A DNA stretch of 64,000 bases, taken from contig NZ_JACHBX010000001.1 in assembly GCF_014200505.1 (NCBI RefSeq), positions 620,001-684,000 on the forward strand, written 5' to 3'. The DNA comes from Massilia aurea (GTDB taxonomy: Bacteria; Pseudomonadota; Gammaproteobacteria; Burkholderiales; Burkholderiaceae_D). Of this stretch, positions 32,669-56,722 are shown piece after piece (positions within the stretch are counted from its first letter, which is position 1; each line of letters begins with the position of its first letter). The translations under genes and the position numbers were made by a program. The notes beneath the pieces were generated by a model. The model saw only the letters and a program-made list of their open reading frames with translations. It made no database searches and was not told where the DNA came from.

Positions 32669-34057
32669 TCAGATCCAGTATTCGGTCAGGCGCGCCATCG
32701 CTTCGCGCAGGCGGTCGGACCATGGCCGCCGTTTCCACGCGTCGAGCTTGATTTCTTTCGAATGGACGACGTCTTCCTTGAACGCGGCTTCCATCTCGCG
32801 CCCGAAGGCCGGGTCCAGCACGACCACATTGACTTCATAGTTGTGGATGAAACTGCGGCGGTCGATATTGGCCGAGCCGATGGAGGACCACATGCCATCG
32901 ATCACCGTGGTCTTGGCGTGCAGGACCGCCACTTGCAACTGGTGAATGCGCACGCCGCCCGCGAGCAGCTCTTCGTAGAACGATTCACCCGCATGCCGGA
33001 TGAAGCCATGGTCGGACACGCCGGGCAGCACGAGCTGCACGTCCACACCGCGCTTGGCGGCGGCGATCAGGCCGTCGACGATCTGGCGGTCCGGCACGAA
33101 GTAGGCGGCTGTCAGGTAGATCGATTTCTTCGATTCGCCGATGGCCACAACGAGTGACTTGTAGATGGACGAATCGTGGTCCGGCGACGTGGCCAGCACG
33201 CGCACCACCTTGTCGCCCGCAGGCGCCAGTTGCGGGAAATAATCGATCTGCGGTAATTCACCGGCGTCCTGGTGCACCCAGTTATCGATGAATGCCCACT
33301 GCAACGCGCCGACCGCAGGGCCCTGGATCTTGATGTGCGTGTCGCGCCAGCCGACCTTGTCCTGGCTCACGTCGTCCGGGCGCTTCTTGGAACGGAACAG
33401 CGAGCTGTTCGCGTAGGTGCTGCTGATGTTGATGCCGCCGGTGAAAGCCACGAGCCCGTCGACGATCATGATCTTGCGGTGATCGCGGTTGTTCAGCGCC
33501 CATTTTCCGGGGCGCTTGGTCGGGTCCACCGGATTGAAGACCAGCACGTTTACGCCGGCCTGGCGCAGCCGGTCGAAGAATTCCTTCGGTGTGGCCAGCG
33601 TGCCGACCCCGTCGACCATGATATTGACCACGACGCCTTCGCTGCGTTTCTGCATCAGGATCTCGGCGAACTGGCCGCCGATCTCGTCATGGTCAAAGAT
33701 ATAAGTTTCCAGGTTGATCGATTTCTTGGCCCCGCGCGCCGCTTCCATCATTGCGCGCATCGTTGCCGGGCCGTCGAACAGCAGCGTGACGGCATTGCCG
33801 GCGATCATCGGCACGCCGGTGGCCTGTTCTTCCAGCACCGCCAACCCCTTGAGATCGGTCGACGCGCGCGCCCAGCGCCGCTTGAGCAGCGCCGCCGCCT
33901 GTTTCTGCTTGAGTTCGCCATGCTGCGTCGTGACCGTCGGCGTCGACTGACCGGGCGCTCCGGTCATCGTGCTGGCATCGGGCAGTGACTTGCAGGCCGT
34001 CACCGCGCAGGCAAGAGCGGCGATGGCACACCAGGCGGCGAAGCGCTGTTTGATCAT
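32669..34057 (-). CDS. Phospholipase D family protein, cardiolipin synthase-like lipoprotein
   Basis: A 462-residue protein with an N-terminal signal ending in a lipobox-like VTAC (C22). Two HKD motifs are intact: HRKIMIVDG in NNRDHRKIMIVDG and HAKTTVIDG. Internal order is as in ClsB/ClsC cardiolipin synthases (TYIFDHDEIGGQFAEIL, GGINISSTYA, GSANIDRRSF). It probably joins phospholipids to make cardiolipin, or hydrolyses them, at the envelope. Its ATG overlaps the stop of the upstream Gcr-type gene by 4 bases (ATGA), so they are co-translated. Confidence 0.9.
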   Translation of the reverse strand: MIKQRFAAWCAIAALACAVTACKSLPDASTMTGAPGQSTPTVTTQHGELKQKQAAALLKRRWARASTDLKGLAVLEEQATGVPMIAGNAVTLLFDGPATMRAMMEAARGAKKSINLETYIFDHDEIGGQFAEILMQKRSEGVVVNIMVDGVGTLATPKEFFDRLRQAGVNVLVFNPVDPTKRPGKWALNNRDHRKIMIVDGLVAFTGGINISSTYANSSLFRSKKRPDDVSQDKVGWRDTHIKIQGPAVGALQWAFIDNWVHQDAGELPQIDYFPQLAPAGDKVVRVLATSPDHDSSIYKSLVVAIGESKKSIYLTAAYFVPDRQIVDGLIAAAKRGVDVQLVLPGVSDHGFIRHAGESFYEELLAGGVRIHQLQVAVLHAKTTVIDGMWSSIGSANIDRRSFIHNYEVNVVVLDPAFGREMEAAFKEDVVHSKEIKLDAWKRRPWSDRLREAMARLTEYWI

Positions 34058-36255
34058 TTTGATCCTCGTACGGGTTCTGCATCAGGGGGCGCCAGTTGGC
34101 GGTGCTTGGGGCCGAGGAAGAATTCCACCGGCGAATACGCAAAGCGGCGGCCCAGTGCCTGCACCAGGAGGATGCCGCGCTTGAAGCGGATCTTGCGTGC
34201 GCGCAGTGCAACCCACAGCGCCAGGCCGAAGCTGACCAACAGGTTGACCGTACCGATCATCAAGACGCCAGCGGTCGCGTTGAGAATCTGCGGCAATGTC
34301 ATCTGGTAGTCAAGCGCCACCAGCGCGGTCGCGAAATTGGCGGCCGAGAACGTGATGTGGCGAATGTCGATCGGCAGGCCCAGCAGGAAGCCGACGGTGC
34401 CCGTGGTGCCCAGCAGAATGCCGAAGAAGAAGTTACCCATCAAACCGCCCAGGTTGTTCTCGACATACGCGCCCAGGCGCGCGAGCCGTGCCGGACCCAG
34501 TAGCGTGCGCAGGCCGCGCAATTGCTGGACGCGCTGGCCCATACGGGTGTACAGCGCCTTATTGTCATAGTAGCCCGATACCAGGCCGGCCACGAACAGC
34601 CAGACGCCGGCCACCGCCGCATAGAACAGGGCAGGGCTGTTGACGGGGTCAATCTCGTTGAGCAGGTGCAGCGCCTTGATCGGGTCCACCAGATGTTCGC
34701 CCCGGTACCAGCGCACCCCCTCGGCAATGGCCCAGGCCACCGGGAACGCGACCAGCACGTTGCCGAGCACCGCCACCATCTGGGTGCGGAACACTTTGTT
34801 GACGAGCTCAGCGAGCCGGTCGACGTCCAGGCCGCGCCCGGTCGCCGAGCGGTGCAGCGAAGCCGCGATGCGCTGGGCCGTCATGGCCGGCTGCTTGGTC
34901 GCCACCGTAAAGTGCAGCATGTGGATCAGCACGAAGCCGAACGAGTAATTCATGCTGAACAAAAAGGCCTGGACCAGCGGCGGCGAGTGCAGATAGCCCA
35001 GCAGAATCTTGAACAGTGCCATGAAGCCGACGATGAAGCCGGCACCGGACGACGACCACAGCATCTTGCGCAAGCCCTTGCGGTCTTCGGCGATGTAGTG
35101 CTCGCCTGTGCGGCTGGCGTTTTCGGTGACATTGCGCGCCAGCAGGTCGACGTTGTCGCGCACCAGGTTCGTCACCTGGTACTTGGTGTTGTGCGCTTCG
35201 ATGAGTTCTTCGGCCAGCTCGATCACGGCGCGCTCGCGCGCCGTCAGTACGAGCGGCGGCTGGTCCGCCACGACGGCGACATTGCCTTGCGGCGTCAGCG
35301 TGACGGCCGATGCGGCCGCGCCGGCCAGCTGCGGCGTGCCGGCTGCCATGGCGCTCAGCACGCCCTGGGTTGCAGCCTCTGTGTCAGCCGCCGTGTCGGT
35401 GTCCGTGGCAACCTCGGGCACGTCCACCAGGAACAGCAGCTTTTGCAGGCGGTCGATACTTTGCTGCAGCGCGACCAGCAGGTAGGTCAGGGCGATGCTG
35501 GTGCCGCTGCTCAGCGCCAGGCGGCGGATCTTGAGCACCACGTCTTCGCACTGGTCGAGCATCACGAGCAGGTGGCGCGCATCGTCCGGACGCGGGATGT
35601 CGCCGTTCAGGTAGCGCGCATATTCATCGAGGTAACGGTTGACCTCGATGTTCTGCATCAGGAACGGTGAGTCGAAGTTCTCGATCTGGCTGTAGCTGTG
35701 CACCAGGCGCGGCTCCAGACCCAGCGCGCAGACGCGGCACGACAGCGTGCGGATTGCATCGAGCAAGCCCTTGAGCGTGACGACGCGCGCGCGGCCAGGG
35801 TTCGCGTCGGCCGGGACCGGCGCGCTTTCGATCACATGGAACAGCGCCATCCAGTCGGTGTCGGGCACTGCGCGAATCCATTCGTAATCGTCCTGGCGGT
35901 ACAGCACCTGGTCGAGTGCATCGGACAGGTACAGGTCTTCCAGTGCCGGCGGCAGGAAACGGTACGTGATGCGGCTTTTCAGCTCGGTGACGAAACCATC
36001 GTTCGACAGGATGCCGATGTCACTGTACAGGCTGGTGTGGCGGCGCTTTTCGAGCAGCGTGGTGATGTAGCGGCGCAGCGCCCAGGCCTGGTCGGGATTG
36101 CCCTTGAGAAGCTGGGTCAGCGTCCGCACGGACTGGGCCGGATCGTCCACGGTTTGCCACACCCAGCGCTGGCGCGGGCGCAGATGGCACACCAACTCAA
36201 CCAGCAGGTCGATGTTGTCACTGTTGGGGTCGATTCGTTCGAGCGTAGAAAGCAT
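34054..36255 (-). CDS. Gcr/SpecificRecomb family membrane protein
   Basis: A 733-residue protein of the family annotated in databases as site-specific recombinase Gcr (PF10136). Residues 1-370 are soluble and helical; about 395-690 contain some seven membrane spans (for example GFIVGFMALFKILLGYL, FFFGILLGTTGTVGFLLGL, VLMIGTVNLLVSFGLALWV). It has no tyrosine- or serine-recombinase catalytic residues, so the family name is probably misleading. It is translationally coupled to a phospholipase-D enzyme, suggesting an envelope or lipid role. No ribosome site is visible before the ATG. Confidence 0.85.
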   Translation of the reverse strand: MLSTLERIDPNSDNIDLLVELVCHLRPRQRWVWQTVDDPAQSVRTLTQLLKGNPDQAWALRRYITTLLEKRRHTSLYSDIGILSNDGFVTELKSRITYRFLPPALEDLYLSDALDQVLYRQDDYEWIRAVPDTDWMALFHVIESAPVPADANPGRARVVTLKGLLDAIRTLSCRVCALGLEPRLVHSYSQIENFDSPFLMQNIEVNRYLDEYARYLNGDIPRPDDARHLLVMLDQCEDVVLKIRRLALSSGTSIALTYLLVALQQSIDRLQKLLFLVDVPEVATDTDTAADTEAATQGVLSAMAAGTPQLAGAAASAVTLTPQGNVAVVADQPPLVLTARERAVIELAEELIEAHNTKYQVTNLVRDNVDLLARNVTENASRTGEHYIAEDRKGLRKMLWSSSGAGFIVGFMALFKILLGYLHSPPLVQAFLFSMNYSFGFVLIHMLHFTVATKQPAMTAQRIAASLHRSATGRGLDVDRLAELVNKVFRTQMVAVLGNVLVAFPVAWAIAEGVRWYRGEHLVDPIKALHLLNEIDPVNSPALFYAAVAGVWLFVAGLVSGYYDNKALYTRMGQRVQQLRGLRTLLGPARLARLGAYVENNLGGLMGNFFFGILLGTTGTVGFLLGLPIDIRHITFSAANFATALVALDYQMTLPQILNATAGVLMIGTVNLLVSFGLALWVALRARKIRFKRGILLVQALGRRFAYSPVEFFLGPKHRQLAPPDAEPVRGSK

Positions 36256-36451
36256 GAAAAAAATTGATACTGGAAAGCCTCAGTGTACGCGAGGCGCCCG
36301 GCCTGGATGGTGTGGCAACGAACAGTAACGTTGTGGAAATGTCCGCATGGCACTTTTAGTGCCCGAACTGCCGGTGCTGGCGGCTGGACGAGGGCAGGGC
36401 AATCCCGCTACACTGGACTGGATTTGCAATGTTGCAGTGACGAAGGAAACC

Positions 36452-37475: not shown

Positions 37476-38144
37476 TTAGCCGCGTGCTGGTTCCGCGACA
37501 TAGATCTCGACGCGGCGGTTACGCGCCTTGCCTGCGTTGTCGTTGTTCGAGGCGATTGGCTCGCGCGAACCGCGGCCTTCGATGGTGATGCGGTTCGGGT
37601 TCACGCCGCGGCCTGCCAGGTAGTCGCGGGTGCGCGATGCGCGGTCGACCGACAATGGCTGGTTGATGCTGTCGCTGCCGGTGCTGTCGGTGTGGCCGAT
37701 GATCACGACGTTGGTGTTTGGGTTCTCTTGCAGCGTCGAAGCGAAGCGCTGCAGCACTGGCTGGAAGTTGCCCTTGATGTCCGAGCGGCCCGTGTCGAAC
37801 GAGATGTCGCTCGGGATTTCCAGCTTCAGGCGGTTATCCGAGGTCTGGGTGACTTGCACGCCGGTGCCCTGGGTCGCTTGTTCCATGGCTTGTTTTTGCT
37901 GTTCCATGCGCTTGGACCAGATATTGCCGATCACGGCGCCGGCTGCTGCGCCAATCGCTGCGCCGCCTGCCACACGGCCGCCGCCACCGCCGCTGGTCGT
38001 GCCGCCGATCAGGCCGCCGAGGCCCGCGCCAATGCCGGCGCCGGTTGCGGTACCGCGCTGGGTGCCGGTCATGTCTGCGCAACCGGTGGCCGTCATGACG
38101 ACGATGGCAACTGCTGCGGTGGTTTTGATGAAGTTTTTGTTCAT
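37476..38144 (-). CDS. OmpA-family lipoprotein with glycine zipper
   Basis: A 222-residue lipoprotein: signal peptide with lipobox ATGC (C22), then a glycine-zipper segment (about 30-75, repeated GxxxG with GGLIGGTTSGGGGG), a short helix and an OmpA_C peptidoglycan-binding domain (about 100-215; IGHTDSTGSDSINQPLSVDR, NRRVEIYV). It matches the YiaD type. It probably anchors the outer membrane to peptidoglycan. AAGGAG precedes the ATG. The 48-residue membrane protein lies 108 bp upstream on the same strand. Confidence 0.93.
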   Translation of the reverse strand: MNKNFIKTTAAVAIVVMTATGCADMTGTQRGTATGAGIGAGLGGLIGGTTSGGGGGRVAGGAAIGAAAGAVIGNIWSKRMEQQKQAMEQATQGTGVQVTQTSDNRLKLEIPSDISFDTGRSDIKGNFQPVLQRFASTLQENPNTNVVIIGHTDSTGSDSINQPLSVDRASRTRDYLAGRGVNPNRITIEGRGSREPIASNNDNAGKARNRRVEIYVAEPARG

Positions 38145-38252: not shown

Positions 38253-38399
38253 CTATATACCGCGACCGCTGATCAGGCGAACCAGGATCATGATGACGGC
38301 GACGACGAGCAGGATGTGGATGAAACCGCCGATGGTGTACGAAGTGACCAAGCCGAGCAGCCAGAGGATAACGAGGACGACAGCAATTGTGTACAGCAT
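38253..38399 (-). CDS. Lmo0937 family small membrane protein
   Basis: A 48-residue protein, MLYTIAVVLVILWLLGLVTS followed by a second hydrophobic span ending VRLISGRGI. This matches the Lmo0937/DUF5670 family of tiny two-span membrane proteins, common in stress regulons and of unknown mechanism. AGGAG lies 7 bases before the ATG. A GTACG-N4-CGTAC dyad begins 71 bases upstream of the start, so it is a probable member of the regulon described here. Confidence 0.88.
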   Translation of the reverse strand: MLYTIAVVLVILWLLGLVTSYTIGGFIHILLVVAVIMILVRLISGRGI

Positions 38400-38470: not shown

Positions 38471-38484
38471 GTACGATGGCGTAC
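38471..38484. promoter_or_regulatory. GTRCG-N4-CGYAC dyad, site A
   Basis: GTACG-atgg-CGTAC, perfect 5+5 dyad, 71 bp upstream of the 48-residue membrane protein gene. Half-site length and 4-bp spacer match the FNR/Crp operator architecture. See the same motif at 38789, 39655, 43436, 43505, 49124, 53720 and 56654. Confidence 0.8.
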
Positions 38485-38485
38485 A

Positions 38486-38710
38486 TTAAACGCAACTTTT
38501 TTGTTTTTGCACGCCAGGGATCCAGCCCATCATCCCGATCAGGCCAGTAAAGCCGATCAGACACGTCAACAGGCCGCCAGCGATCAGGAACAGCACGTCA
38601 TGCGCTTCTACCAGCCCTTGCACGGCAGGCGCCGGGCCGGCCGACAGCAGGCCGAAAAGAGTCAGTACCATTCCCCAAATGATGATGCCGATCCAGGTTA
38701 ATGTGTTCAT
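38486..38710 (-). CDS. Small two-span membrane protein
   Basis: A 74-residue protein with two hydrophobic segments (ITWIGIIIWG-like residues 4-24 and 40-66) and a polar tail GVQKQKSCV. Unknown family. GGGAG precedes the ATG. A variant of the regulon dyad lies 78 bp upstream (38789-38802), placing it with the other envelope-stress genes here. Its stop is only 2 bp from site A of the next gene, suggesting separate promoters. Confidence 0.8.
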   Translation of the reverse strand: MNTLTWIGIIIWGMVLTLFGLLSAGPAPAVQGLVEAHDVLFLIAGGLLTCLIGFTGLIGMMGWIPGVQKQKSCV

Positions 38711-38788: not shown

Positions 38789-38802
38789 GTGCGATGGCAC
38801 AC
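38789..38802. promoter_or_regulatory. GTRCG-N4-CGYAC dyad variant, site B
   Basis: GTGCG-atgg-CACAC, one base off the consensus in the right half, with the same atgg spacer as site A. It lies 78 bp upstream of the 74-residue membrane protein gene. Confidence 0.6.
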
Positions 38803-38885: not shown

Positions 38886-39584
38886 TTATGCCACCGAGCG
38901 CAGACGGCCCTTGACGATGCGTACGCGGTCGCCGCTGCCCCATTGTGGCTGGCTGGTCTGGTGGAAGGTACGCAGCGTGCCGTCATCCAGGCGCACCCGG
39001 ATTTCATAGCTGGTCGTTGCCTTCACATTGCCTTCGACCTGGTTGCCCACGACAGCACCGCCGATGGCGCCCGCCGCGGTGGCCAGCGTCTTGCCATTGC
39101 CGCCACCGATCTGGTTACCCAGCAAGCCGCCAAGGACGGCGCCACCGGCTGCGCCCAGGCCACTGCCTTCGGCACGTTGCTTGATTGCGCGCACCGATTC
39201 CACGTTGCCGCAGTTTTCACACCAGTTGCTCTTTGCTGCCAACTGGGTCGGCTCGCTTTCCTTGATCTGCGTCACAGGCGCAGCTTGTTTGACAGGTGCC
39301 GGTGCAGGTACGGGAACCGGCGCAGGGGCATAGGCTTGCGCTGGCGCCTGGGCATCGGCAGGGTAGGCGTAGCCAGGCGGTGGCGCACCTTGTGGCAGGG
39401 TCGAGGCGAGCGCTAGGCGATCGGCTTCGGTCAGCTGACGGTTGGCCGTGCCGCCGACCGACGATGGCAGCCAGCCCATGATGGCGGCGGTGCCGACCAG
39501 CGAGAACAGCACGACAGCGGCGGCGGCCAGGAGCAGCAGCGGGTGGGTGCGGTTCTTGACCGGCATGGTTGGAGGGGTTGTCAT
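38886..39584 (-). CDS. Glycine-zipper 2TM domain envelope protein
   Basis: A 232-residue protein. An N-terminal membrane anchor (about 15-40) is followed by a Pro/Ala-rich linker (about 65-105), a WCENCG cysteine pair near 120, a glycine-zipper 2TM domain (SlyB-like, GAVLGGLLGNQIGGGNGKTL near 145) and a C-terminal beta segment (YEIRVRLDDGTLRTF ... GDRVRIVKGRL). The C-terminal half is paralogous to the product of the gene ending at 48609. Location is probably the periplasm or outer membrane. AAAGGAAC supports this start, and site C lies 71 bp upstream. Confidence 0.88.
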   Translation of the reverse strand: MTTPPTMPVKNRTHPLLLLAAAAVVLFSLVGTAAIMGWLPSSVGGTANRQLTEADRLALASTLPQGAPPPGYAYPADAQAPAQAYAPAPVPVPAPAPVKQAAPVTQIKESEPTQLAAKSNWCENCGNVESVRAIKQRAEGSGLGAAGGAVLGGLLGNQIGGGNGKTLATAAGAIGGAVVGNQVEGNVKATTSYEIRVRLDDGTLRTFHQTSQPQWGSGDRVRIVKGRLRSVA

Positions 39585-39654
39585 CTTTTGTTCCTTTCGT
39601 ATAGGCATTAAGCCGGATGTCCGATGATTGTCCTCAGGAACAACTAATGCTTCC

Positions 39655-39688
39655 GTGCGTCACCGTACATACCTGCGCACCCTGTGCG
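39655..39688. promoter_or_regulatory. GTRCG-N4-CGYAC dyad, site C, plus mirrored dyad
   Basis: GTGCG-tcac-CGTAC (39655-39668) followed 7 bp later by CGCAC-cct-GTGCG (39676-39688), the same half-sites facing the other way. The pair lies between the divergent glycine-zipper gene (71 bp) and the Crp/Fnr-type regulator gene (81 bp), so it may serve both, including autoregulation. Confidence 0.75.
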
Positions 39689-39769
39689 ATTAGGCTCCAT
39701 CACATTGTTTGTAAATGTAACTGGTCGTAGCGGTCCCGGCTGGCCCACGTACCAACCTGTGAGGAAATA

Positions 39770-40498
39770 ATGAATTCTGCCGTCCACCCGCCTGTCTTCG
39801 AGCCCAACAGTAATTTGTTACTCGCAGCACTTCCCCCGCACGATCTCGCCCAGATGCTGCCGCAGCTCGATGAGGTCAGGGTGGAAGCTGGCCAGGTCTT
39901 GTGCGAAGCGGGCGATCCCATTCTTCATATCTATTTCCCCCACGATTGCCTGGTGTCGTTGCTGGGCGTGGCCGAAGGGCGCATGACGCTCGAGGTCGGT
40001 CAGGTCGGGCGGGAAGGCATGCTCGGCGCCACCACGGCGCTGGGCCACGACATCACGCAAGTGCGCGCCGTTGTTCAGCGCGCCGGTAGCGCGAGCCGGA
40101 TGGAAGGCGGCCGCTTTCGCCTCGAAGTCTCGCGCAATCCCGCGTTGCAGCGCGTGCTGTACCGGTACACCGATTCCTTGCTGGCCCAGGCGATCCAGAT
40201 CGCCGTGTGCAGCCGTTTCCACGTGCTCGAAGCGCGCCTGGCCCGGTCGCTGCTCGTCACGCGCGACCGTCTGCAATCGGATAAATTCCACCTGACGCAC
40301 GAGTTTCTCGCGCATGCACTGGGTGTGCGCCGGGTTGGCGTGACCAAGGCGGCCAGCGCGTTGCAGCAGCAGGGCCTGATCAATTACAGTCGGGGCAATA
40401 TCGAGATCCTCGACCCGGAGCGCCTGGCGGCAGCGGCATGCACCTGCTACCAGATCGTGCGCGAAGCGGGGGCTGCGCCGGCCACCGATACCGTCTGA
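39770..40498 (+). CDS. Crp/Fnr family transcriptional regulator
   Basis: A 242-residue regulator. A cyclic-nucleotide-binding-type beta roll (about 20-145; VEAGQVLCEAGDPILHIYFP) is followed by the long dimer helix and a Crp-type HTH (about 155-225) with FLAHALGVRRVGVTKAASAL as turn and recognition helix. The ligand pocket lacks the usual cAMP-contact Arg/Ser pattern, and there is no Fe-S cysteine set as in FNR, so the signal is unknown. The start is preceded by GAGGAAA. Dyads of GTGCG/CGTAC type sit 81-115 bp upstream. It is the best candidate to bind that motif throughout this block. Confidence 0.9.
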   Translation: MNSAVHPPVFEPNSNLLLAALPPHDLAQMLPQLDEVRVEAGQVLCEAGDPILHIYFPHDCLVSLLGVAEGRMTLEVGQVGREGMLGATTALGHDITQVRAVVQRAGSASRMEGGRFRLEVSRNPALQRVLYRYTDSLLAQAIQIAVCSRFHVLEARLARSLLVTRDRLQSDKFHLTHEFLAHALGVRRVGVTKAASALQQQGLINYSRGNIEILDPERLAAAACTCYQIVREAGAAPATDTV

Positions 40499-40852: not shown

Positions 40853-41179
40853 TTATTTCAGGCGCAGGTCATTCCTGACCGATTTCACGCCGTTGACGGT
40901 TCGCGCGGCCGAAGCCGCTGCGGCGACGCTGTCGGCCGAAGAGACGAATCCCTGCAGCCGGACAATGCCTTGGTGCGTATTGACATCCAGATCGGACACT
41001 TTCAGGTCGGGATCACGCCTGATGGCGCTATGCACCCCGGCAGTGATGACATCGTCCTGGACCGCTTCGACCTTGCCGAAACCGGGTAATCCGGACGTGC
41101 ATCCCGTCAGTGCTCCACCAGCCAGTGCGGCCAGTAAAACGGGGATGCTGCCAAAACGCTTGATGCTCGATCCGTTCAT
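40853..41179 (-). CDS. BON domain lipoprotein
   Basis: A 108-residue protein with a signal peptide and lipobox LTGC (C26). One BON domain follows (about 40-105; DDVITAGVHSAIRRDPDLKV ... GIVRLQGFVSSADSVAAAAS ... VKSVRNDLRLK). BON proteins such as OsmY bind phospholipid membranes and appear under osmotic or envelope stress. First gene of a two-gene unit with the glycine-zipper lipoprotein. The ribosome site is weak. No GTGCG-type dyad was found upstream. Confidence 0.85.
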   Translation of the reverse strand: MNGSSIKRFGSIPVLLAALAGGALTGCTSGLPGFGKVEAVQDDVITAGVHSAIRRDPDLKVSDLDVNTHQGIVRLQGFVSSADSVAAAASAARTVNGVKSVRNDLRLK

Positions 41180-41298
41180 GCGGGTGTTTCTTTTCTTGAT
41201 GACCTGAGCGTGATCATAGTCAGGATTGCCAAATTGATCTGTTCGGCAACACACAGAGCCCGTGCCAGGTTGTTACAGGTTGTATCCGTGAGGCTATT

Positions 41299-43368
41299 TC
41301 ATCGACGTTGGCGTCGACCCGGTGGCGGCGCACTGGGCGCCTGGCGTGCCTGCGCCAACAGGCGCGCGCAATCGCTGTCTTCACCGGGCCCCGTATTGAT
41401 CAACGGGAGCAGGGCAGCCAGTGGCGCGGCGACGACAGCCAGTGCGGCGGCGCCGCCTGCTTTCATTGCCAGCACACCCTTGTCGATGGCCACGTCCGGC
41501 TTGCTGAACGGGCCGCGCACATACAGTGGCGCGCGCAGCGAAAAGATGCGCAGCGCCTTGGTTTCGGGCCGGATACGCAGTTCCATCTGCTCGCCCGCCA
41601 GGTTGATGGCGCCGTCGACGGTGATGATGGCTTCCTCGGTGTCGACGATGAAGCTGCGCGTGCGCGCGACGCCATCCTGGACGGCAAAGTCGGCCGCCAC
41701 GCAGTTGAGTTCAACCTGCTTGTCGCCGAACAGCTTGGTGACGACGATGTTCGCCACGTTCAAGCCGGCCATTTCCAGCAGCATCTTGCTTACCGTGCCT
41801 TCGCTGACGAGCGCCTTGAGTTCGCCATTGGATGTGGCCAGCAGCGATGCGACCGAATTGCCGGTGGCCGACAGCTTGGCGTCTGCATTGATCTGGCCAG
41901 CGGTTGCCTGCATCTGCTCGATCTTCGGGAACAATTGCTTGATGCCGATCTTGCGGGCCCGAACGTCCGCCATCGCCTTGATGGCGTTCTTGCCGCTGCG
42001 CCCGCTGCCATCGAGGCGAATGGTGGTGCGCACGGTGCCGCCGGCCATGCCGAATTCGAGTGGGTCGAGCCGGAGCACACCGTTGTCCATCTTGATGTGG
42101 CTGCTGAGCTTACTGATCGGCAGCGCCTTGTCACGCACGATATTGTCGGCGGCAAAGCGCACGTCGGCATCCAGCGCTGTCCAGCGTTCGGTGTGGAATT
42201 CTTCCACTGGCAATACCTTGCCGCTCGGCTGCTTCGTCTCGACGCCGCGCGCCGCCTTGCTGGCGTTCGAATCGGCGCCGACGAGTGGCGCCAGATCGGC
42301 AAACACGAGCTGGCGCGAGCGCACATTGCCTGACAACACCGGACGCGCGCCACCGGTCGCGTACTCGAGGCGCCCGCCGATATCGCTCGCGCCCACCTTG
42401 CCGGCAAAGCCGTCGTAGACCCAGCGGCTGGCACCCTTGGCCAGGCGGCCGGTCAGGCGGCCCGACGTGGAAAACGCCGGCGTTTCCGGCAATAGCACGC
42501 CGGTAAATTGATACAGGCGCGCCATGCTGGCGCCGGCCAGTTCGAGTTGCACGTCCAGCGCGGCGAGCCGGGCCGGATTGGTAACGGTGCCGGCAATGGC
42601 GATGCGCGTCTTGCCCGATTTGAACTCACCCTGGATCGGGTAGGGCGCGGTGGCGTCCTTCAGCGAAAACACCGAGCCGAGCTTGCCCCCGCCGCCCACT
42701 TTGGCGCCGTTGTAGGTTCCGTCGAGCGTGAACGCCACGCCATAGACCGGATCGCGCTCGAGCGTGCGCACCCGGGCCGTGACATCGGCCTTGGTGACCG
42801 CATCCTTGACGTGGATGACGCCGTCGGTCAGCACGACGCGCTCGAGGTCGAGATTCCAGCGCGACGGTTGCTCGTTGCGCTGGAAGGTCCAGTTATTCGT
42901 GGCAGCATTTGTGCGCAGCAGGTCGACGCGGGGCGCGTCGAAGCGCAGCAGCGGAATGCCGATCCGCTTGTCCAGCAGCGCGAGCGGATCGAGCGAGAAG
43001 GAAAACTGGCCGACGCTGGCCATGTTCCCGGCCGCCATGCCGGCCGGATTGCCGATCGTGGTGTTGCGCGCCACGAGGTAGGGCCACGGGATGTGGTCGC
43101 GCCACGTGCGCTCGGCCGGCGCTATCCGCGCTGCGGGACGCTCCCACGACACAGTCAGGTCGCCCTGGATGGCAAACGGGCGATCGATGGCGTCGCTGAC
43201 CTTGTTATTGATCCACGGCCGGGCGCGGTTCCAGTCGAAGGTCGCAATGACGATGATGGCGATGACGGGCAGCGCGATCAGCACGGCAAGGATCCACAGG
43301 CCGATCTTCTTCTTGCTGCGGCGCGGCCCCGGTGGGCGCTGCGCCGGCAGCGGCATTGTCTCGGCCAT
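41299..43368 (-). CDS. AsmA family protein
   Basis: A 689-residue protein with one N-terminal membrane anchor (about 22-45; IGLWILAVLIALPVIAIIVI) and a long periplasmic beta-rich chain with the AsmA_N-type start (FDWNRARPWINNKVSDAIDRPF, in family order) and AsmA C-terminal segment (about 490-640). AsmA/TamB-type proteins form hydrophobic grooves that move phospholipids between inner and outer membrane. It ends in a basic Pro-rich tail. AAAGGAC supports this start rather than a longer frame. Site D lies 68 bp upstream. Confidence 0.9.
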   Translation of the reverse strand: MAETMPLPAQRPPGPRRSKKKIGLWILAVLIALPVIAIIVIATFDWNRARPWINNKVSDAIDRPFAIQGDLTVSWERPAARIAPAERTWRDHIPWPYLVARNTTIGNPAGMAAGNMASVGQFSFSLDPLALLDKRIGIPLLRFDAPRVDLLRTNAATNNWTFQRNEQPSRWNLDLERVVLTDGVIHVKDAVTKADVTARVRTLERDPVYGVAFTLDGTYNGAKVGGGGKLGSVFSLKDATAPYPIQGEFKSGKTRIAIAGTVTNPARLAALDVQLELAGASMARLYQFTGVLLPETPAFSTSGRLTGRLAKGASRWVYDGFAGKVGASDIGGRLEYATGGARPVLSGNVRSRQLVFADLAPLVGADSNASKAARGVETKQPSGKVLPVEEFHTERWTALDADVRFAADNIVRDKALPISKLSSHIKMDNGVLRLDPLEFGMAGGTVRTTIRLDGSGRSGKNAIKAMADVRARKIGIKQLFPKIEQMQATAGQINADAKLSATGNSVASLLATSNGELKALVSEGTVSKMLLEMAGLNVANIVVTKLFGDKQVELNCVAADFAVQDGVARTRSFIVDTEEAIITVDGAINLAGEQMELRIRPETKALRIFSLRAPLYVRGPFSKPDVAIDKGVLAMKAGGAAALAVVAAPLAALLPLINTGPGEDSDCARLLAQARQAPSAPPPGRRQRR

Positions 43369-43435: not shown

Positions 43436-43449
43436 GTGCGATGGCGCAC
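43436..43449. promoter_or_regulatory. GTRCG-N4-CGYAC dyad, site D
   Basis: GTGCG-atgg-CGCAC, perfect dyad with the same spacer as sites A and B, 68 bp upstream of the AsmA gene start and in the divergent promoter region shared with the DUF4398 operon. Confidence 0.8.
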
Positions 43450-43504: not shown

Positions 43505-43518
43505 GTGCGTCACCGAAC
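43505..43518. promoter_or_regulatory. GTRCG-N4-CGYAC dyad variant, site E
   Basis: GTGCG-tcac-CGAAC, one base off consensus, with the same tcac spacer as site C. It lies 60 bp upstream of the DUF4398 lipoprotein gene and probably serves that operon. Confidence 0.6.
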
Positions 43519-43578: not shown

Positions 43579-43968
43579 ATGAATAAACATCAATCGATGA
43601 CCGGGTTTGCCCGCCTTGGCTGCGTTGCCGCTCTGCTGGCACTGACGGCCTGCGCAAGTCCTGACAAGGCGCCTGCGACGGCGGACGTGGCTGTCTCGCG
43701 CAACGCCATCGAGAACGCGGTGTCGGCAGGTGCAGCTGACCTGGCGCCGGCAGAAATCACGGCGGCACGTGAAAAGATGGGCAAGGCCAATCAGGCCCTG
43801 GCCGCGCGCGACTACAAGCTGGCTCGCGAACTGGCAGTCCAGGCCCAGGCTGACGCCAAGCTGGCCCAGAGCAAGGCCGTGTCGAGCAAGGCAACTGCCG
43901 CGTCGACCCAGCTGAATGAAGACTTGCGCGTGCTGCGTGAAGAAGTCGACCGCGCCAACACCAACTAA
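43579..43968 (+). CDS. DUF4398 domain lipoprotein
   Basis: A 129-residue lipoprotein: signal peptide with lipobox LTAC (C25) and an all-helical DUF4398 domain (about 40-125; LAPAEITAAREKMGKANQAL, ARDYKLARELAVQAQADAKL). Function unknown; the domain is usually beside or fused to OmpA_C domains, as in the next gene. GAGGAG precedes the ATG. First gene of a probable operon running to about 46.8 kb, with regulon site E upstream. Confidence 0.88.
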   Translation: MNKHQSMTGFARLGCVAALLALTACASPDKAPATADVAVSRNAIENAVSAGAADLAPAEITAAREKMGKANQALAARDYKLARELAVQAQADAKLAQSKAVSSKATAASTQLNEDLRVLREEVDRANTN

Positions 43969-44061
43969 TACCAGGCAAGCAATTGCACTGCTTCCTGTCT
44001 GATGCAGACAGGAGTTCGCGCCGACGATCCGGCGCATATGGAAAATAAAAGGAATAACAAC

Positions 44062-44985
44062 ATGAAAAACCGCAAATCCGCCGTATCGATCCTGGCCGCC
44101 GCCGTGCTGGCCGCCGCCTGCGCCAGCGCACCCATGACCACGCCAACGCTTGACCAGGCGCGCGCCGACTTTGTCAGCGCCAACAATAATTCGCAGGTCT
44201 CGACCTACGCACCCCTCGAATTCAAGCAAGCCAGCGAAGCCCTCGACCAGGCCAACCAGGCTGCAGCCCGCCGCGAAAGCCTGAGCGACATCGACCGCCT
44301 GGCCTATGTGGCCAAGCAGCGCATCGCTACGGCGCAAGAAGTCGCCAAGGGCAAGGCCGCCGAAGCGAATATCGCCGACGCAACGCGCCAGCGCGACATG
44401 GTCCGCCTGGATGCCCGCACCGCCGAAGCCGATCGCGCCAAGCGTGATGCTGAAGCCGCCCAGGCTGCTGCCCAGCAGGCCCAGGGTCAGGCGCAGCAAG
44501 CCCAGATGCAGGCACAGGCCGCCCAGGCTGAGACGGCTGCCATGGCCGAACGCGCTGCCAAGCTCGAAGCGCTGCTGGTCGACCTGCAAGCCGTGAAAAC
44601 CGAACGCGGCTTTGTCGTGACGATCGGCGACGTCCTGTTTGCGACCGACCAGGCCGTGCTGAATGCGAATGGCGTCTCGACGCTGCGCAAACTGGCCGAC
44701 GTCATGGCCCAGAACCCGAACCGCACCGTGCTGATCGAAGGCTTCACCGACAGCACCGGCAGCGAGAGCCACAACCAGCAACTGTCCGAACGCCGCGCCG
44801 CCGCTGTCGCGACCGCGCTGGCAGGTCAGGGCGTGCCACGTGAACGTATCGCCATGCGCGCCTACGGCGAAGCATTCCCTGTTGCATCGAATGACAGCGC
44901 AGCAAGCCGTCAGCAGAATCGTCGCGTCGAAATCGTTCTGTCGAACGAAGGCGCAGCCATTCCGCCACGCGCAGCAGCGCGTTGA
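44062..44985 (+). CDS. DUF4398 and OmpA domain lipoprotein
   Basis: A 307-residue protein. Signal peptide with lipobox AAAC (about C20), a DUF4398 helical region (about 30-110), a long Ala/Gln coiled coil (about 110-175, QAAAQQAQGQAQQAQMQAQA) and an OmpA_C domain (about 185-300; LIEGFTDSTGSESHNQQLSE, NRRVEIVL). It would span from the outer membrane lipid to peptidoglycan, with the coiled coil as spacer. AAAAGGAA precedes the ATG. It is the second gene of the operon and a paralogue-by-domain of the first. Confidence 0.92.
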   Translation: MKNRKSAVSILAAAVLAAACASAPMTTPTLDQARADFVSANNNSQVSTYAPLEFKQASEALDQANQAAARRESLSDIDRLAYVAKQRIATAQEVAKGKAAEANIADATRQRDMVRLDARTAEADRAKRDAEAAQAAAQQAQGQAQQAQMQAQAAQAETAAMAERAAKLEALLVDLQAVKTERGFVVTIGDVLFATDQAVLNANGVSTLRKLADVMAQNPNRTVLIEGFTDSTGSESHNQQLSERRAAAVATALAGQGVPRERIAMRAYGEAFPVASNDSAASRQQNRRVEIVLSNEGAAIPPRAAAR

Positions 44986-45023
44986 ACACATTTTTTGAAC
45001 CGACTCTGAATTAAGGAATGACA

Positions 45024-45557
45024 ATGGAACAAACCAACAACCTCGGCCACGGCTTTGATGTCTCCGCAATCCGCAAGGCAGCCGCCAACCTCGACGACGG
45101 CGCCGTCACCGAGGGCTACCAGGCCGACCGTGAAGCCGTCATCGCGATGCTGAACGATGCACTGGCCACCGAACTGCTGTGCGTGATGCGTTACAAGCGC
45201 CATTACTACACCGTCAGCGGTCCAGGCACCGGCCAGATCAAGGCCGAGTTCCTCGAGCACGCGCAGCAAGAGCAGGAACACGCCGACCGCATCGCCGAAC
45301 GCATCGTGCAACTGAACGGTTCGCCAGACTTCAACCCGGCCACGTTTGCTGCCCGCAGCCACGCCGAATACGACGCGTCGGAAAACGCACAGGACATGGT
45401 CCGCGCCGACCTGATCGCCGAACGTGTGGCGATCGAATCGTATCGCCAGATGATCGTGGCGATCGGCGACAAGGATCCAACCACCCGCAATATGCTGGTG
45501 GAAATCATGGCCGTCGAAGAAGAACACGCCGACGATATGCGCGACCTGATGGCCTGA
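45024..45557 (+). CDS. Ferritin-like (bacterioferritin-type) protein
   Basis: A 177-residue four-helix ferritin-like protein. Iron-ligand motifs are in place: NDALATELLCVMRYKRHYY (first Glu), EFLEHAQQEQEHADRI (E and EH), RADLIAERVAIESYR and MAVEEEHADDM (late E/EH pair). It may store iron or detoxify peroxide. AAGGA with 6-base spacing favours the second of two nearby ATG codons. Placement inside an envelope-stress operon links iron or peroxide protection with membrane stress. Confidence 0.9.
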   Translation: MEQTNNLGHGFDVSAIRKAAANLDDGAVTEGYQADREAVIAMLNDALATELLCVMRYKRHYYTVSGPGTGQIKAEFLEHAQQEQEHADRIAERIVQLNGSPDFNPATFAARSHAEYDASENAQDMVRADLIAERVAIESYRQMIVAIGDKDPTTRNMLVEIMAVEEEHADDMRDLMA

Positions 45558-45620
45558 GCTTGACCGTGACCCGCCCCGTGCGGGTCAGTTTCAATGATTG
45601 ATTAGTGACAGGAGTAGAAC

Positions 45621-45965
45621 ATGCTAGACACTTCCCGCAACAGCCACGGCAGCATGCACCCGATCAGCGGCAGCACCTATGCCACCCAGTCCGACATGAA
45701 GGCCCTCGTGCGTGACGCGCAGTCGATGCTGACCGCCGCCGCATCGCTCACCGGCGAGAAAGCCGAAGAGCTGCGTGAGCGTGGCATGGCACTGCTCGAC
45801 ACCGTCCTGGGCGGCGCTAGCCTGGTCCCGACGCAGGCCGTGGTCAAGGGCAAGGAACTGGTTCATACCGCTGATGTCTATGTCAAAGACAATCCGTGGC
45901 GCATCGTGGCAGTAGCGGCAGGTGTCGGCGTGCTCATTGGCGTGCTACTTAGCCGCAAACATTAA
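45621..45965 (+). CDS. DUF883 family protein (YqjD/ElaB-like)
   Basis: A 114-residue protein of the DUF883 family: a helical N-terminal domain (DMKALVRDAQSMLTAAASLT, KAEELRERGMALLD) and a C-terminal membrane anchor (WRIVAVAAGVGVLIGVLLSRKH). E. coli YqjD and ElaB are inner-membrane proteins that bind ribosomes in stationary phase. AGGAG precedes the ATG. The next genes match yqjE and the yqjK position, so the E. coli yqjDEK order is kept here. Confidence 0.92.
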   Translation: MLDTSRNSHGSMHPISGSTYATQSDMKALVRDAQSMLTAAASLTGEKAEELRERGMALLDTVLGGASLVPTQAVVKGKELVHTADVYVKDNPWRIVAVAAGVGVLIGVLLSRKH

Positions 45966-45978
45966 GGTTGGGGGCTAC

Positions 45979-46365
45979 GTGGATAAAGAAGAAGCAGTCG
46001 TGCATAACCCCGGCGTATTCGCCGGCATTTCCAGTTTGTTCAAGAGTCTGTTCGGGCTGGCCGTCTCGCGCGTCGAGCTCGCCGCGCTGGAGCTGGCCGA
46101 CATCCGCAATCACATCATCGAGCTGGTGGCCATCTTTGCCGTGGCCGCGCTGGCGGTCTGGTTTGCCATCGCCTTCGGTGCGATGACGATCGTCGCGCTG
46201 GCATGGGAATCGATGGGCTGGACCATCCTGTTGATCATGTTCGCCGTGTTTGCACTCATCACGGCCATTCTCGTGGCCAAGGGCATGGCACTGATCAAGC
46301 AGAACAAGCTGGGCTTCCCGGCGACGATGAAAGAACTGAAAAACGACCGCGAGATGCTGCTGTGA
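45979..46365 (+). CDS. Phage holin superfamily III membrane protein (YqjE-like)
   Basis: A 128-residue protein with two membrane spans (about 45-70, 75-100; LVAIFAVAALAVWFAIAFGA, MGWTILLIMFAVFALITAIL) preceded by an amphipathic helix (SSLFKSLFGLAVSRVELAAL). It matches PF07332, which includes E. coli YqjE. The start is GTG with a G-rich site 5 bases upstream and lies 13 bp after the DUF883 gene. Its role is unknown; by position it acts with the YqjD-like protein. Confidence 0.88.
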   Translation: MDKEEAVVHNPGVFAGISSLFKSLFGLAVSRVELAALELADIRNHIIELVAIFAVAALAVWFAIAFGAMTIVALAWESMGWTILLIMFAVFALITAILVAKGMALIKQNKLGFPATMKELKNDREMLL

Positions 46366-46388
46366 GCGGCGCACCCAAAGAGGCCAAC

Positions 46389-46781
46389 ATGCACAAACAC
46401 GACAAGACGACCGGGTTGGCCGGTCATCAACACAGTCTGGACCCGGCAATTCGAAAGCAGGAGCTGCTGCGTGAAGGCGAGTTCTTCCGCGCTGGCGTGG
46501 CCCATGCCAAGGCCAGCATCCAGCATGGCATCAAGCCTGAAGTGATGCTGCGCTCGGCGTTCGACCACACCACGGTGGCGCTGCGCACCAAAGCCGACGC
46601 GCTGCTCAAGCCGACCGGTACCAATGTGTCGATGCTGATGCCGTATGCCATGACTGCCGTGAACTTCGTGCGTCAGCGTCGCATGGGCAAGCAGGCAGCG
46701 GGCGCTGCAGTGGGCGTGGGCATTCTGGGCTGGTACCTGAATCGCCGGCGCACCCGCAAGGCCAAGGCCAAGGAAGCATGA
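46389..46781 (+). CDS. Uncharacterised protein in yqjK position
   Basis: A 130-residue basic protein with a helical body (IRKQELLREGEFFRAGVAHA) and a short weakly hydrophobic Gly/Ala segment near the end (GKQAAGAAVGVGILGWYLNR) before a Lys/Arg tail. It occupies the place of yqjK in the yqjD-yqjE-yqjK unit but I cannot confirm homology. AAAGAGG precedes the ATG. Last gene of the operon; a strong hairpin follows at 46789. Confidence 0.7.
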   Translation: MHKHDKTTGLAGHQHSLDPAIRKQELLREGEFFRAGVAHAKASIQHGIKPEVMLRSAFDHTTVALRTKADALLKPTGTNVSMLMPYAMTAVNFVRQRRMGKQAAGAAVGVGILGWYLNRRRTRKAKAKEA

Positions 46782-48608: not shown

Positions 48609-49067
48609 TCAGTAACGGTAGACGCGGCCGTCGACGATGCGAACGCGGTTGCCCACGCGCAGATCGTAGACGCTGTCCTGCATTACGGCGCGGTATTCGC
48701 CGTTATCCATGCGGACATTGATCTGATACTGCTCAGGGCCCTGTGCGTTGCGGTTCTTTTCCACATTGTTACCAATTGCTGCACCGGCGACACCGGCAGC
48801 CACGGTGGCTGCAGTGCGGCCGCCGCCGCTGCCGATCTGGTTGCCGGCCAGTGCACCAACGACACCGCCCAGGATGGCGCCGGCGCCGCTCGTGCGGTTT
48901 TCACCTTGTGCGACCTGAATCGAATCGATCACGCCGTAGCCAGCCGACGCGCTGCTGCTGGCATTGTTGTAGCCGCCGCCGAATGGCTGCTGGCTGTTGC
49001 TGGCGCAACCAGTGAGCAGGGCGCCGGTGGCGAGGACGACAGCGATAAGTTTACGGTTTGCATTCAT
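48609..49067 (-). CDS. Glycine-zipper 2TM domain lipoprotein
   Basis: A 152-residue lipoprotein: lipobox LTGC (C21), Ser/Asn-rich linker, a glycine-zipper 2TM domain (about 60-100; GAILGGVVGALAGNQIGSGG) and a C-terminal beta segment (YQINVRMDNGEYRAV ... VGNRVRIVDGRVYRY). It is paralogous to the C-terminal half of the product encoded at 38886-39584. AGGAGAAC precedes the ATG. The perfect regulon dyad F lies 57 bp upstream. Confidence 0.9.
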   Translation of the reverse strand: MNANRKLIAVVLATGALLTGCASNSQQPFGGGYNNASSSASAGYGVIDSIQVAQGENRTSGAGAILGGVVGALAGNQIGSGGGRTAATVAAGVAGAAIGNNVEKNRNAQGPEQYQINVRMDNGEYRAVMQDSVYDLRVGNRVRIVDGRVYRY

Positions 49068-49123: not shown

Positions 49124-49137
49124 GTGCGTTGCCGCAC
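49124..49137. promoter_or_regulatory. GTRCG-N4-CGYAC dyad, site F
   Basis: GTGCG-ttgc-CGCAC, perfect 5+5 dyad, 57 bp upstream of the glycine-zipper lipoprotein gene. It is also in the divergent gap before the exported protein gene at 49316 (178 bp away). Confidence 0.8.
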
Positions 49138-49315
49138 TCACCTTGTTTTGCTTTGGGGTCCGACCTGTCGTCAGGGGACGGTGGATATGTCAGGCAATGA
49201 GCGTTGTTTGCGTGACACAGCCCAACACTCTGCGTCTTGTGTTCGCCAGCGTACAGAAGGCGGGTGTGGCGCATGTAAAGATAGCGCCAGTGTTGACAAA
49301 TGGTGAACAAAAATA

Positions 49316-49867
49316 ATGAAGACTCCGCATGTGATGTTCCTGATCGCTGTTGCCATGGCCTGGACTGCTCCGGCTCTGGCACAAGTGGCAGGGCAGGATG
49401 CGAAGGCCGCTTATCAATACGCGATGGACACTGCCGAAGCCGGCTATGATGCCGCCAAGGCCAGGTGTGACACCATGGCCGGTGTGCCGCACGAGATCTG
49501 CGTTGCCGATGCCCGTGCAGCGCGGGTCCGGATCGAAGAAGAGGTGACGGCAGCCCAGAAGAACACGCTCGCGGCCTATACCCAGGCACGCACGCGTATT
49601 GCGACCGCGTTTCATGAACGCGACAAGACGCGCTGCGGTGCGCTGGTCGGGAATGACCGCGAAGTCTGCCTGGCCCAGGCCAAGGCGACACTGGTTGCGC
49701 TCCAGGCAGATGCCCGGGCCGACCGCAAGGCGATCGAAGCGCGTCTGGATGCCAATGACGTCAAGATCGAAGCTGAATATCGCGTCGCACTGCAGAAGTG
49801 CGATGCCTTCGCCGGCGCCGTCAAGGACGGGTGCGTGAGCACCGCCCGGACGGCATACGGCAAATAA
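49316..49867 (+). CDS. Exported helical protein with spaced cysteines
   Basis: A 183-residue protein with a signal peptide (about 1-22, cleaved after ALAQ) and a fully helical, Ala/Lys/Glu-rich body with cysteines at regular distances (ARCDTMAGVPHEICVADARA, TRCGALVGNDREVCLAQA, QKCDAFAGAVKDGCVSTA). The three C-x(9-12)-C pairs look like an internal repeat, each a helical hairpin closed by a disulfide. I do not recognise the family. The ribosome site is weak. It precedes a BON-domain gene by 79 bp. Confidence 0.8.
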   Translation: MKTPHVMFLIAVAMAWTAPALAQVAGQDAKAAYQYAMDTAEAGYDAAKARCDTMAGVPHEICVADARAARVRIEEEVTAAQKNTLAAYTQARTRIATAFHERDKTRCGALVGNDREVCLAQAKATLVALQADARADRKAIEARLDANDVKIEAEYRVALQKCDAFAGAVKDGCVSTARTAYGK

Positions 49868-49946: not shown

Positions 49947-50261
49947 ATGAAAATCGCTAAAAGCATCATCTCCGCTGCCATCTTCGCTACCGTCGCTATC
50001 ACCGCTGTCGGTTGCTCGTCGACCAACAAGCAAGCCAGCACCGGCGAATACGTCGACGACGCAGTGATCACCACCAAGGTCAAGGCTGCCCTGATCAATG
50101 ACCCTAACGTGAAAGCACGCGAAGTCAACGTCGAAACCTTCAAGGGCGACGTTCAGCTGTCGGGCTTTGTTGCTGATGCACGCGATGCACAGCGCGCTGT
50201 CGAGATCGCACGTGGCGTCAAAGGCGTGACCGCGGTCAAGAACGACATCCGCGTGAAGTAA
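49947..50261 (+). CDS. BON domain lipoprotein (OsmY-like)
   Basis: A 104-residue lipoprotein: lipobox VGC (about C23) and one BON domain (about 35-104; YVDDAVITTKVKAALINDPN, VQLSGFVADARDAQRAVEIA, AVKNDIRVK). It should bind phospholipid in the periplasm under stress. TAGGAG precedes the ATG. It is paralogous to the BON protein at 40853-41179. The permease gene follows 45 bp later. Confidence 0.92.
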   Translation: MKIAKSIISAAIFATVAITAVGCSSTNKQASTGEYVDDAVITTKVKAALINDPNVKAREVNVETFKGDVQLSGFVADARDAQRAVEIARGVKGVTAVKNDIRVK

Positions 50262-53630: not shown

Positions 53631-54154
53631 AGGTAACTCCCGTTGGTTAAAATTGATGACAAAGCATGCGTCAGCAGCTAAGTTGGATAAAGCTTAACAG
53701 TGCCAGTTCCGAATCCTCGGTGCGCTACCGCACCTAATGCAAAAACGCTGTGCGATTTTACAACAGTGGTCAAATTCGCACATTTCTAAGGTGAAACGAA
53801 CTGTAACGACGCTGTCATGTTGCAGATGAAGAGGGTGCACACTGCAGAATGTCATGTTGGGGTCATGCAGGTATAGTGTTGCTTGTGCAGATGACATGGT
53901 GCGGCAGCGTCGTCATGTCTTAGAGAGTTTACAAGATTGCAAGAGTTCCACCAGCGGCGCCAAAACAACGTGTTTTGTGCTCTGCACCATGGTGCTCTCA
54001 GGAATCTTGTCGAATGTTGGATGGCGCACAGACCATGGTGTCTGATGCAGGCAATCTTGAGGCTAGTTAAGCGGAACCGAGATGTTGTCAGGGTGTCACA
54101 CGACACACAGCGACCCGGACCACACAGTCTCACTCTCTATTGGAGCTAATCAAT
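53631..54154. other. Long divergent regulatory region
   Basis: 524 bases between the OmpA gene and the regulator-like gene at 54155. It holds regulon site G (53720), a perfect 12-bp palindrome GCACCATGGTGC (53984-53995), a second ACCATGGTG at 54032, a half-matching dyad GTTGG-atgg-CGCAC (54016-54029) and an inverted pair CAAGATTGC / GCAATCTTG (53932, 54051). Short frames inside are not protein-like. The space suggests long leader RNAs or several promoters. Confidence 0.55.
53720..53733. promoter_or_regulatory. GTRCG-N4-CGYAC dyad, site G
   Basis: GTGCG-ctac-CGCAC, perfect 5+5 dyad, 90 bp upstream of the GTG start of the major OmpA gene. Confidence 0.8.
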
Positions 54155-56653: not shown

Positions 56654-56667
56654 GTGCGGCGCCGTAC
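56654..56667. promoter_or_regulatory. GTRCG-N4-CGYAC dyad, site I
   Basis: GTGCG-gcgc-CGTAC, full consensus match, 55 bp upstream of the glycine-zipper stress protein gene at 56723. Confidence 0.78.
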
Positions 56668-56722
56668 AGATGGGTCGCTGCCGCGGGCGCATGCTGGCCT
56701 CTCTATCCAGGAGAACTTGCCC

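Follow-up and report, generated by a model that had tools for sequence, protein, structure and literature searches.

The described systems closest to this locus are FNR of Escherichia coli, CRP/CAP with its relatives GlxR and MtbCRP, Fnr of Bacillus subtilis and B. cereus and, by gene content, the RpoS general stress regulon of enterobacteria. The excerpted sources place class II Crp sites at -41.5 (PMC5957442) and give FNR the consensus site TTGATnnnnATCAA; of 23 promoters that FNR activates directly and whose start is known, 19 carry the site at -41.5 within 4 nt (PMC3688515). The [4Fe-4S] cluster of B. subtilis Fnr is bound by three C-terminal cysteines together with Asp141 (PMC3520743, excerpt), and PMC6389858, by its title, places ElaB under OxyR and RpoS. 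Here we analyse a Crp/Fnr-type protein that quite probably represents a subfamily with its own operator, activating itself and the promoters of the surrounding block from near -41.5 as a class II activator. Its predicted regulon is local and of an envelope/stress type; self-activation is likely, and a new sensor site is possible.

The window, the whole stretch of 64,000 nucleotides that was analysed, corresponds to C1:620001-684000 of a 5.39 Mb genome, and the genes of interest lie in the block 36001-60000. As the sequence-only reading had proposed, the gene at 39770 encodes a Crp/Fnr-type regulator. The protein matches HTH_Crp_2 (PF13545, E = 1.5e-15; Pfam), its match to cNMP_binding stays below threshold (23.1 bits against a cut-off of 27.5), and NCBIfam returned weak matches only, far under the cut-offs. 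A structural model built from 34 sequences reached a mean pLDDT of 87 and a pTM of 0.82, and its best PDB matches are CRP-type regulators, which together with the PF13545 match identifies the superfamily fold, a Crp-type winged HTH with a cNMP-binding-like beta-roll. The helix quoted in the earlier reading, ALGVRRVGVTKA, is present in the protein. The recognition helix is LGVRRVGVTKAA (residues 184-195) in the focus clade and mostly LGVRREGVTEAA in the alignments of remoter relatives; R188 is kept in all of 107 aligned sequences and R187 in 105. The block had been said to contain no other transcription factor of operator-compatible type, and a Pfam survey of 30 proteins, most of them from 36-61 kb, found no other transcription factor family. 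By eye, the product of 54155-54757, which has no Pfam or NCBIfam match, contains a winged-helix-like stretch and is a possible second DNA-binding protein of the block.

A strong match to the regulator is present in all 25 genus genomes, its own included, among 41 genomes searched. In the best 80 of 587 relatives, the closest named one belongs to Oxalobacteraceae sp. CFBP 13730 (98% protein identity), and further close relatives come from Massilia, Janthinobacterium, Duganella, Rugamonas and Pseudoduganella. Searches of the openly licensed literature listed nothing relevant on the regulator, the motif or the regulon, and this includes the excerpted text of one candidate paper (PMC8510549). As far as our searches of that literature show, the subfamily is common yet uncharacterised.

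Compared with the described systems, the regulator shares with E. coli FNR, as excerpted, the superfamily fold, a 5-4-5 operator layout and a class II position near -41.5. Unlike FNR, it has a GTNCG half-site instead of a TTGAT-type one and another recognition helix, as the earlier reading had claimed with respect to FNR and Crp, and its conserved cysteines and histidine sit at the hinge and the C-terminus rather than the N-terminus. It lacks an FNR-type N-terminal [4Fe-4S] cysteine cluster, with no cysteine before C45, and position 45 is a cysteine in 7 of 34 aligned sequences; two FNR-like proteins of the same genome (L123, L126) carry N-terminal cysteines. With CRP/CAP, as excerpted, and with GlxR and MtbCRP, it shares the best structural matches of the model and, by prediction, class II activation at -41.5, but it differs from them in its sub-threshold cNMP_binding match, in an identity of 16-22% among the matches listed and in its operator. 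A cAMP phosphate-binding cassette, the pattern of which we took from general knowledge, was not found in the regulator by eye; R99 is kept in 25 of 34 sequences. Within the excerpted text (PMC3520743), Bacillus Fnr is similar in that its C-terminal extension carries the sensor cysteines, here candidates only, and a further ligand comes from another part of the protein. Instead of three C-terminal Fe-S cysteines and an aspartate, however, the regulator has a C-x-C motif together with C147 and H151.

Coordinates of the regulator, its operator and the predicted targets in the window (strand "." where none applies; hexamers are -10-like)
Feature	Position	Strand	Hexamer	Context or basis
Crp/Fnr-superfamily regulator, 242 aa	39770..40498	+		ORF, Pfam, alignments, model
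Operator GTGCGTCACCGTAC	39655..39668	.		between two divergent genes, about -41.5 of both promoters (predicted); conservation, spacing
-10-like hexamer, regulator gene	39691..39696	+	TAGGCT	32 bp from operator centre
-10-like hexamer, divergent glycine-zipper gene	39627..39632	-	GACAAT	32 bp from operator centre
Glycine-zipper 2TM protein, divergent neighbour, predicted target	38886..39584	-		PF05433
Second dyad CGCACcctGTGCG	39676..39688	.		probably chance, outside the system; frequency, conservation
Operator-like site, 7 of 8	36310..36323	.	TACACT	before PF10136 membrane protein 34054-36255
Operator	38471..38484	.	CATACT	before 48-aa membrane ORF 38253-38399 (-) and OmpA/glycine-zipper gene 37476-38144
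Operator-like site, 7 of 8	38789..38802	.	GACAAT	before 74-aa protein 38486-38710
Operator-like site, 7 of 8	41241..41254	.	TATGAT	before BON-domain gene 40853-41179
Operator	43436..43449	.	TACCCT	before AsmA gene 41299-43368
Operator	43505..43518	.	TATAAC	before gene run 43579-46781
Operator	49124..49137	.	TATTCT	before glycine-zipper gene 48609-49067
Operator	49241..49254	.	AAAGAT (weak)	before 49316-49867, then BON gene 49947-50261
Operator	53720..53733	.	TAAGCT at 33 bp	before OmpA-type porin 52602-53630
Operator	56654..56667	.	CATGCT (weak)	before 56717-57277

Two mirrored dyads had been noticed in the divergent promoter region, and they fared differently. The first, GTGCG-tcac-CGTAC, is an instance of the operator consensus GTNCGNYRNCGNAC. 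The core of this dyad is retained ahead of the regulator gene in every one of the 24 genus sequences for which upstream DNA is available, a number that includes the window's own; in a 25th (L027) the upstream DNA is cut off, and this sequence was left out of the count. In the genus the core sits within a nearly invariant stretch, TTCCGTGCGTCACCG(T/A)ACATAC, and most of the 79 named relatives still show it, with drift, ahead of their regulator gene. The second, CGCAC-cct-GTGCG, is probably a chance occurrence. Its pattern is found 15 times in the window with at most one mismatch, against 11.8 expected, and of the 24 genus sequences that keep the core, only that of the window's own genome has it exactly, two others having it with two mismatches. 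It was therefore rejected as a regulatory element, and the suggested motif pair reduces to a single operator.

Other conserved sequences surround this operator. An ECF-type promoter reading of a conserved GGAAC upstream of the dyad was set aside, because the 32-bp spacing to the -10 accounts better for the sites and because GGAAC is not kept in all orthologues. The stretch ATTGTCctcAGGAACAAC (39627-39645), between the glycine-zipper gene and the operator, is kept in most genus orthologues; on the left it comprises the -10 of the divergent gene, and its GGAACAA part is without explanation. A AAATTGTTTGCAAATGTATC-like stretch at 39705-39722, just 3' of the regulator's predicted transcript start, is likewise kept in most genus orthologues and is perhaps a second regulatory site. 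Drift of the operator to a GTGCGCYANCGYCC-like form, with the 32-bp spacing to a CAnnnT-like hexamer preserved, was seen in nine relatives (L213, L219, L222, L226-L229, L237 and L246), several of which bear names such as Accumulibacter or Rhodocyclaceae.

The pattern GTNCGN4CGNAC occurs ten times in the window. All ten copies lie within 38-60 kb, and none was found in the 36 kb to the left of the block; in 300 dinucleotide shuffles the block had 0.83 copies on average and at most 5. The dyad centre is YR in nine copies. Eight lie between or just before genes, and those at 52818 and 59608 are intragenic (ORF lists, by eye). Copies with one mismatch are present at 36310, 38789, 41241 and 54016, as are many others elsewhere. 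In seven of the ten exact dyads, NAnnnT stands at a distance of exactly 32 bp from the centre on one or both sides; the shuffles gave 0.08 such dyads on average and never more than 1. The description of the regulator as master of a local regulon is fair for the block; it holds only locally, because the exact bare dyad is barely enriched across the genome (78 against 67 for the control).

The distance to the -10 proved characteristic. Fifteen site-and-direction pairs in the block were examined for a -10-like hexamer relative to the dyad centre. Hexamers lie at exactly 32 bp at 36310, 38471, 38789, 39655 (in both directions), 41241, 43436, 43505 (rightward) and 49124, although at 39655 leftward and at 43436 another offset scores slightly above 32. 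The hexamers at 49241 and 56654 are weaker, the one at 53720 is displaced by one base pair, 54016 has a poor hexamer only, and none was seen at 43505 leftward or 36310 rightward. In most genus relatives the -10 of the regulator gene is TACGCT, at 32 or 33 bp. Since a hexamer centred at -9.5 lies 32 bp from the dyad centre, the dyad itself would be centred near -41.5, so the computed spacing predicts a palindromic operator at the place from which CRP and FNR work as class II activators.

The same spacing recurs in relatives. We collected 103 dyads from 19 chosen 20-kb stretches around relatives plus the window, where two control palindromes occur 9 and 2 times; TAnnnT stands at 32 bp on 51 of the 206 sides, at 33 bp on 8, at 34 bp on 12 and at each remaining spacing from 15 to 59 on 0 to 7, counts that are not independent because promoters of the regulators themselves and related copies are among the sequences. 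Of the 80 named relatives, 79 had enough upstream DNA to look for dyad and hexamer together. A dyad with at least 7 of 8 positions and NAnnnT at 31-33 bp precedes the regulator in 62 of them, with exactly 32 bp in 59; in 39 the dyad is full and the spacing 32 bp. In 50 local shuffles the count averaged 1.9 and never exceeded 5, no other single spacing between 20 and 49 reached more than 18, and five control palindromes gave 1, 23, 3, 2 and 1, the 23 being without explanation.

We propose that a dimeric activator of the Crp/Fnr superfamily binds GTNCGNYRNCGNAC centred near -41.5, and that the bound dimer would recruit RNA polymerase to promoters with a -10-like hexamer. The one operator at 39655 would serve two divergent promoters, that of the regulator and that of the glycine-zipper gene, and the same element would act at about ten further promoters of envelope/stress-type genes in the block. 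Because the 39655 operator faces both genes with a hexamer at 32 bp each, this arrangement suggests self-activation of the regulator. The operator, its spacing, its conservation and its association with the regulator gene are results of the computation; binding, activation as opposed to repression, and a stress role are inferred.

The proposed ownership of the local motif by this regulator is well supported by position, conservation and geometry: the dyad lies at the regulator's own promoter in most relatives, in an FNR-like 5-4-5 layout and at the predicted class II position, which supports the link drawn in the sequence-only reading. Across 104 homologue rows, a full dyad with a -10 was found in 43 of 45 at 68% identity or above, the two misses being L027 with its cut-off upstream DNA and L065 (68%), which has no full dyad with a -10. 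It was found in 7 of 14 at 47-68% identity, plus one with 7 of 8 positions, and in 7 of 45 below 47%, plus five with 7 of 8. Of the nine HTH_Crp_2 matches encoded in the genome, the focus gene alone combines a full dyad with a -10 at 32 bp; a full dyad also precedes L126, with no hexamer at that distance. Motif and orthologue also tend to co-occur across genomes, as had been suggested for a check. Over 116 genomes of the family, the mean copy number of the extended dyad TGTNCGNYRNCGNACA is 9.5 with a close homologue (n = 38), 6.7 with a remoter member (n = 46) and 2.7 with neither (n = 32), with control pattern means of 1.4, 1.4 and 0.7. Counts follow the regulator family (Mann-Whitney p = 1.4e-9), although the control pattern differs too (p = 0.0014). 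Two or fewer extended dyads occur in 8 of the 84 genomes with a member. Motif-bearing genomes without an orthologue, named beforehand as evidence against the link, do exist, in that 7 of the 32 genomes without a close family member have at least four extended dyads. In five of these seven, 15 of 37 sites were examined, and TAnnnT at 32 bp was present in two (L294, L297), with CACGAT at 33 bp in one; none of the ten HTH_Crp_2 matches read, out of 26 in those genomes, has an LGVRR helix.

These genomes, two of whose examined sites have a well-placed -10, are what one would expect if the operator were owned by another, unlinked regulator that activates the Crp/Fnr gene as well as the block, the Crp/Fnr protein being merely a target; a link drawn from position and conservation only would fit this too. 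We consider it improbable, given that FNR-type sites have this 5-4-5 layout and -41.5 position, that motif counts drop where the family is missing and that in most relatives the dyad stays at the regulator's own promoter. Alternatively, the operator could be common to several Crp/Fnr paralogues, and the regulator of the block in vivo partly another one. Several paralogues in other genera may indeed share it, because remoter operator-bearing members often carry GTTCGGTANCGAAC-like helix versions; such members with RREGVTEAA helices also show promoter dyads. For the block itself the chance of this seems slim: the genome holds a 41% paralogue at C1:1909744, but this protein carries an RRESIT helix and lacks three of the four conserved Cys/His residues, and the upstream stretch that was scanned contains no dyad with a -10. 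Repression is known for Crp/Fnr proteins as well, and the regulator might act at these sites mainly as a repressor or anti-activator. We give this little credence, as the fixed 32-bp distance to the -10 is the layout of class II activation, whereas FNR-repressed sites vary in position (PMC3688515, excerpt).

The statement of the sequence-only reading that the regulator has neither cAMP-contact residues nor Fe-S cysteines agrees with the sub-threshold cNMP_binding match and the lack of FNR-like N-terminal cysteines, but it overlooks four near-invariant residues, C147, H151, C224 and C226. C147 and H151 lie at the end of the dimer helix (124-150) and the hinge, and C224 and C226 between two C-terminal helices (216-222 and 226-235). 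All four are invariant in the 34-sequence alignment. Among 107 sequences, query included, down to 38% identity, C147, H151 and C224 are present in 106 and C226 and Y227 in all 107. The sole exception is the paralogue of the same genome (C1:1909744-1910397), and ten fetched orthologues of it (L324-L333) show the same G, S and G in place of C147, H151 and C224. Of the 80 named relatives, the best among 587, all have C147 and H151, and 78 have C224-x-C226-Y; the records of the other two, L212 and L237, end there. The set was absent from the four alignable stretches among eight remote Crp/Fnr-like ones fetched. The joint keeping and joint loss of these residues suggest one functional unit, a candidate 3Cys-1His metal, Fe-S or redox site. 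In IscR, three cysteines and one histidine hold a [2Fe-2S] cluster.

In the proposed signal step, C147/H151 and C224/C226, from the dimer-helix end and the C-terminal extension, would form a single metal, Fe-S or thiol-redox site that sets DNA-binding activity, a reading we hold tentatively and at somewhat less than even confidence. The four residues could equally be structural, for example a zinc staple, with a small ligand in the N-terminal pocket as the true signal, for which we see nearly an even chance. Pocket-like conservation speaks for such a ligand (G83 and G86 invariant, E82 in 33 and A100 in 32 of the 34 aligned sequences). That one clade has lost three of the four residues together is what a metal site would predict whether it is structural or sensory. 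The fullest form of the sensory reading strikes us as rather unlikely: that a widespread subfamily of Burkholderiales and some other proteobacteria senses redox, iron or NO through a 3Cys-1His metal or Fe-S site and, by positive self-activation, runs an envelope/general-stress regulon like the one controlled by RpoS in enterobacteria. The site would then be new, joining the dimer helix with the C-terminal tail. The paralogue clade, in which the three losses go together with the RRESIT helix, may have a different signal and operator.

The predicted targets are envelope/stress-type genes, among them BON, OmpA and AsmA genes and the run at 43579-46781, which encodes DUF4398, OmpA, ferritin-like, DUF883 and holin-X-like proteins (Pfam). 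In relatives the same elements precede similar genes, including CsbD-like ones in L086 and L090 (short translations, by eye), and the layout at the 36310 site recurs there. The 48-aa membrane ORF at 38253-38399 resembles 55-aa ORFs similarly placed in relatives, and annotation easily misses it. The gene content recalls the RpoS general stress regulon of enterobacteria in its BON genes, which we liken to OsmY, and its DUF883/ElaB-like ones. In contrast to that regulon, the putative activator here is a Crp/Fnr protein and not a sigma factor, and gene content is what suggests the stress role. The preferred reading would tie this Crp/Fnr subfamily to a concrete operator, promoter layout and envelope/stress-type gene set in Massilia-like bacteria and their relatives. 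With the four residues named as mutable candidates for the signal, regulon and sensor both become directly testable.

The genome has 69 more exact GTNCGNYRNCGNAC dyads beyond the window, and 41 of them were examined. Four of these sites (L004, L254, L259 and L271) combine the dyad with a well-placed hexamer before likely start codons and are possible distant members of the regulon.
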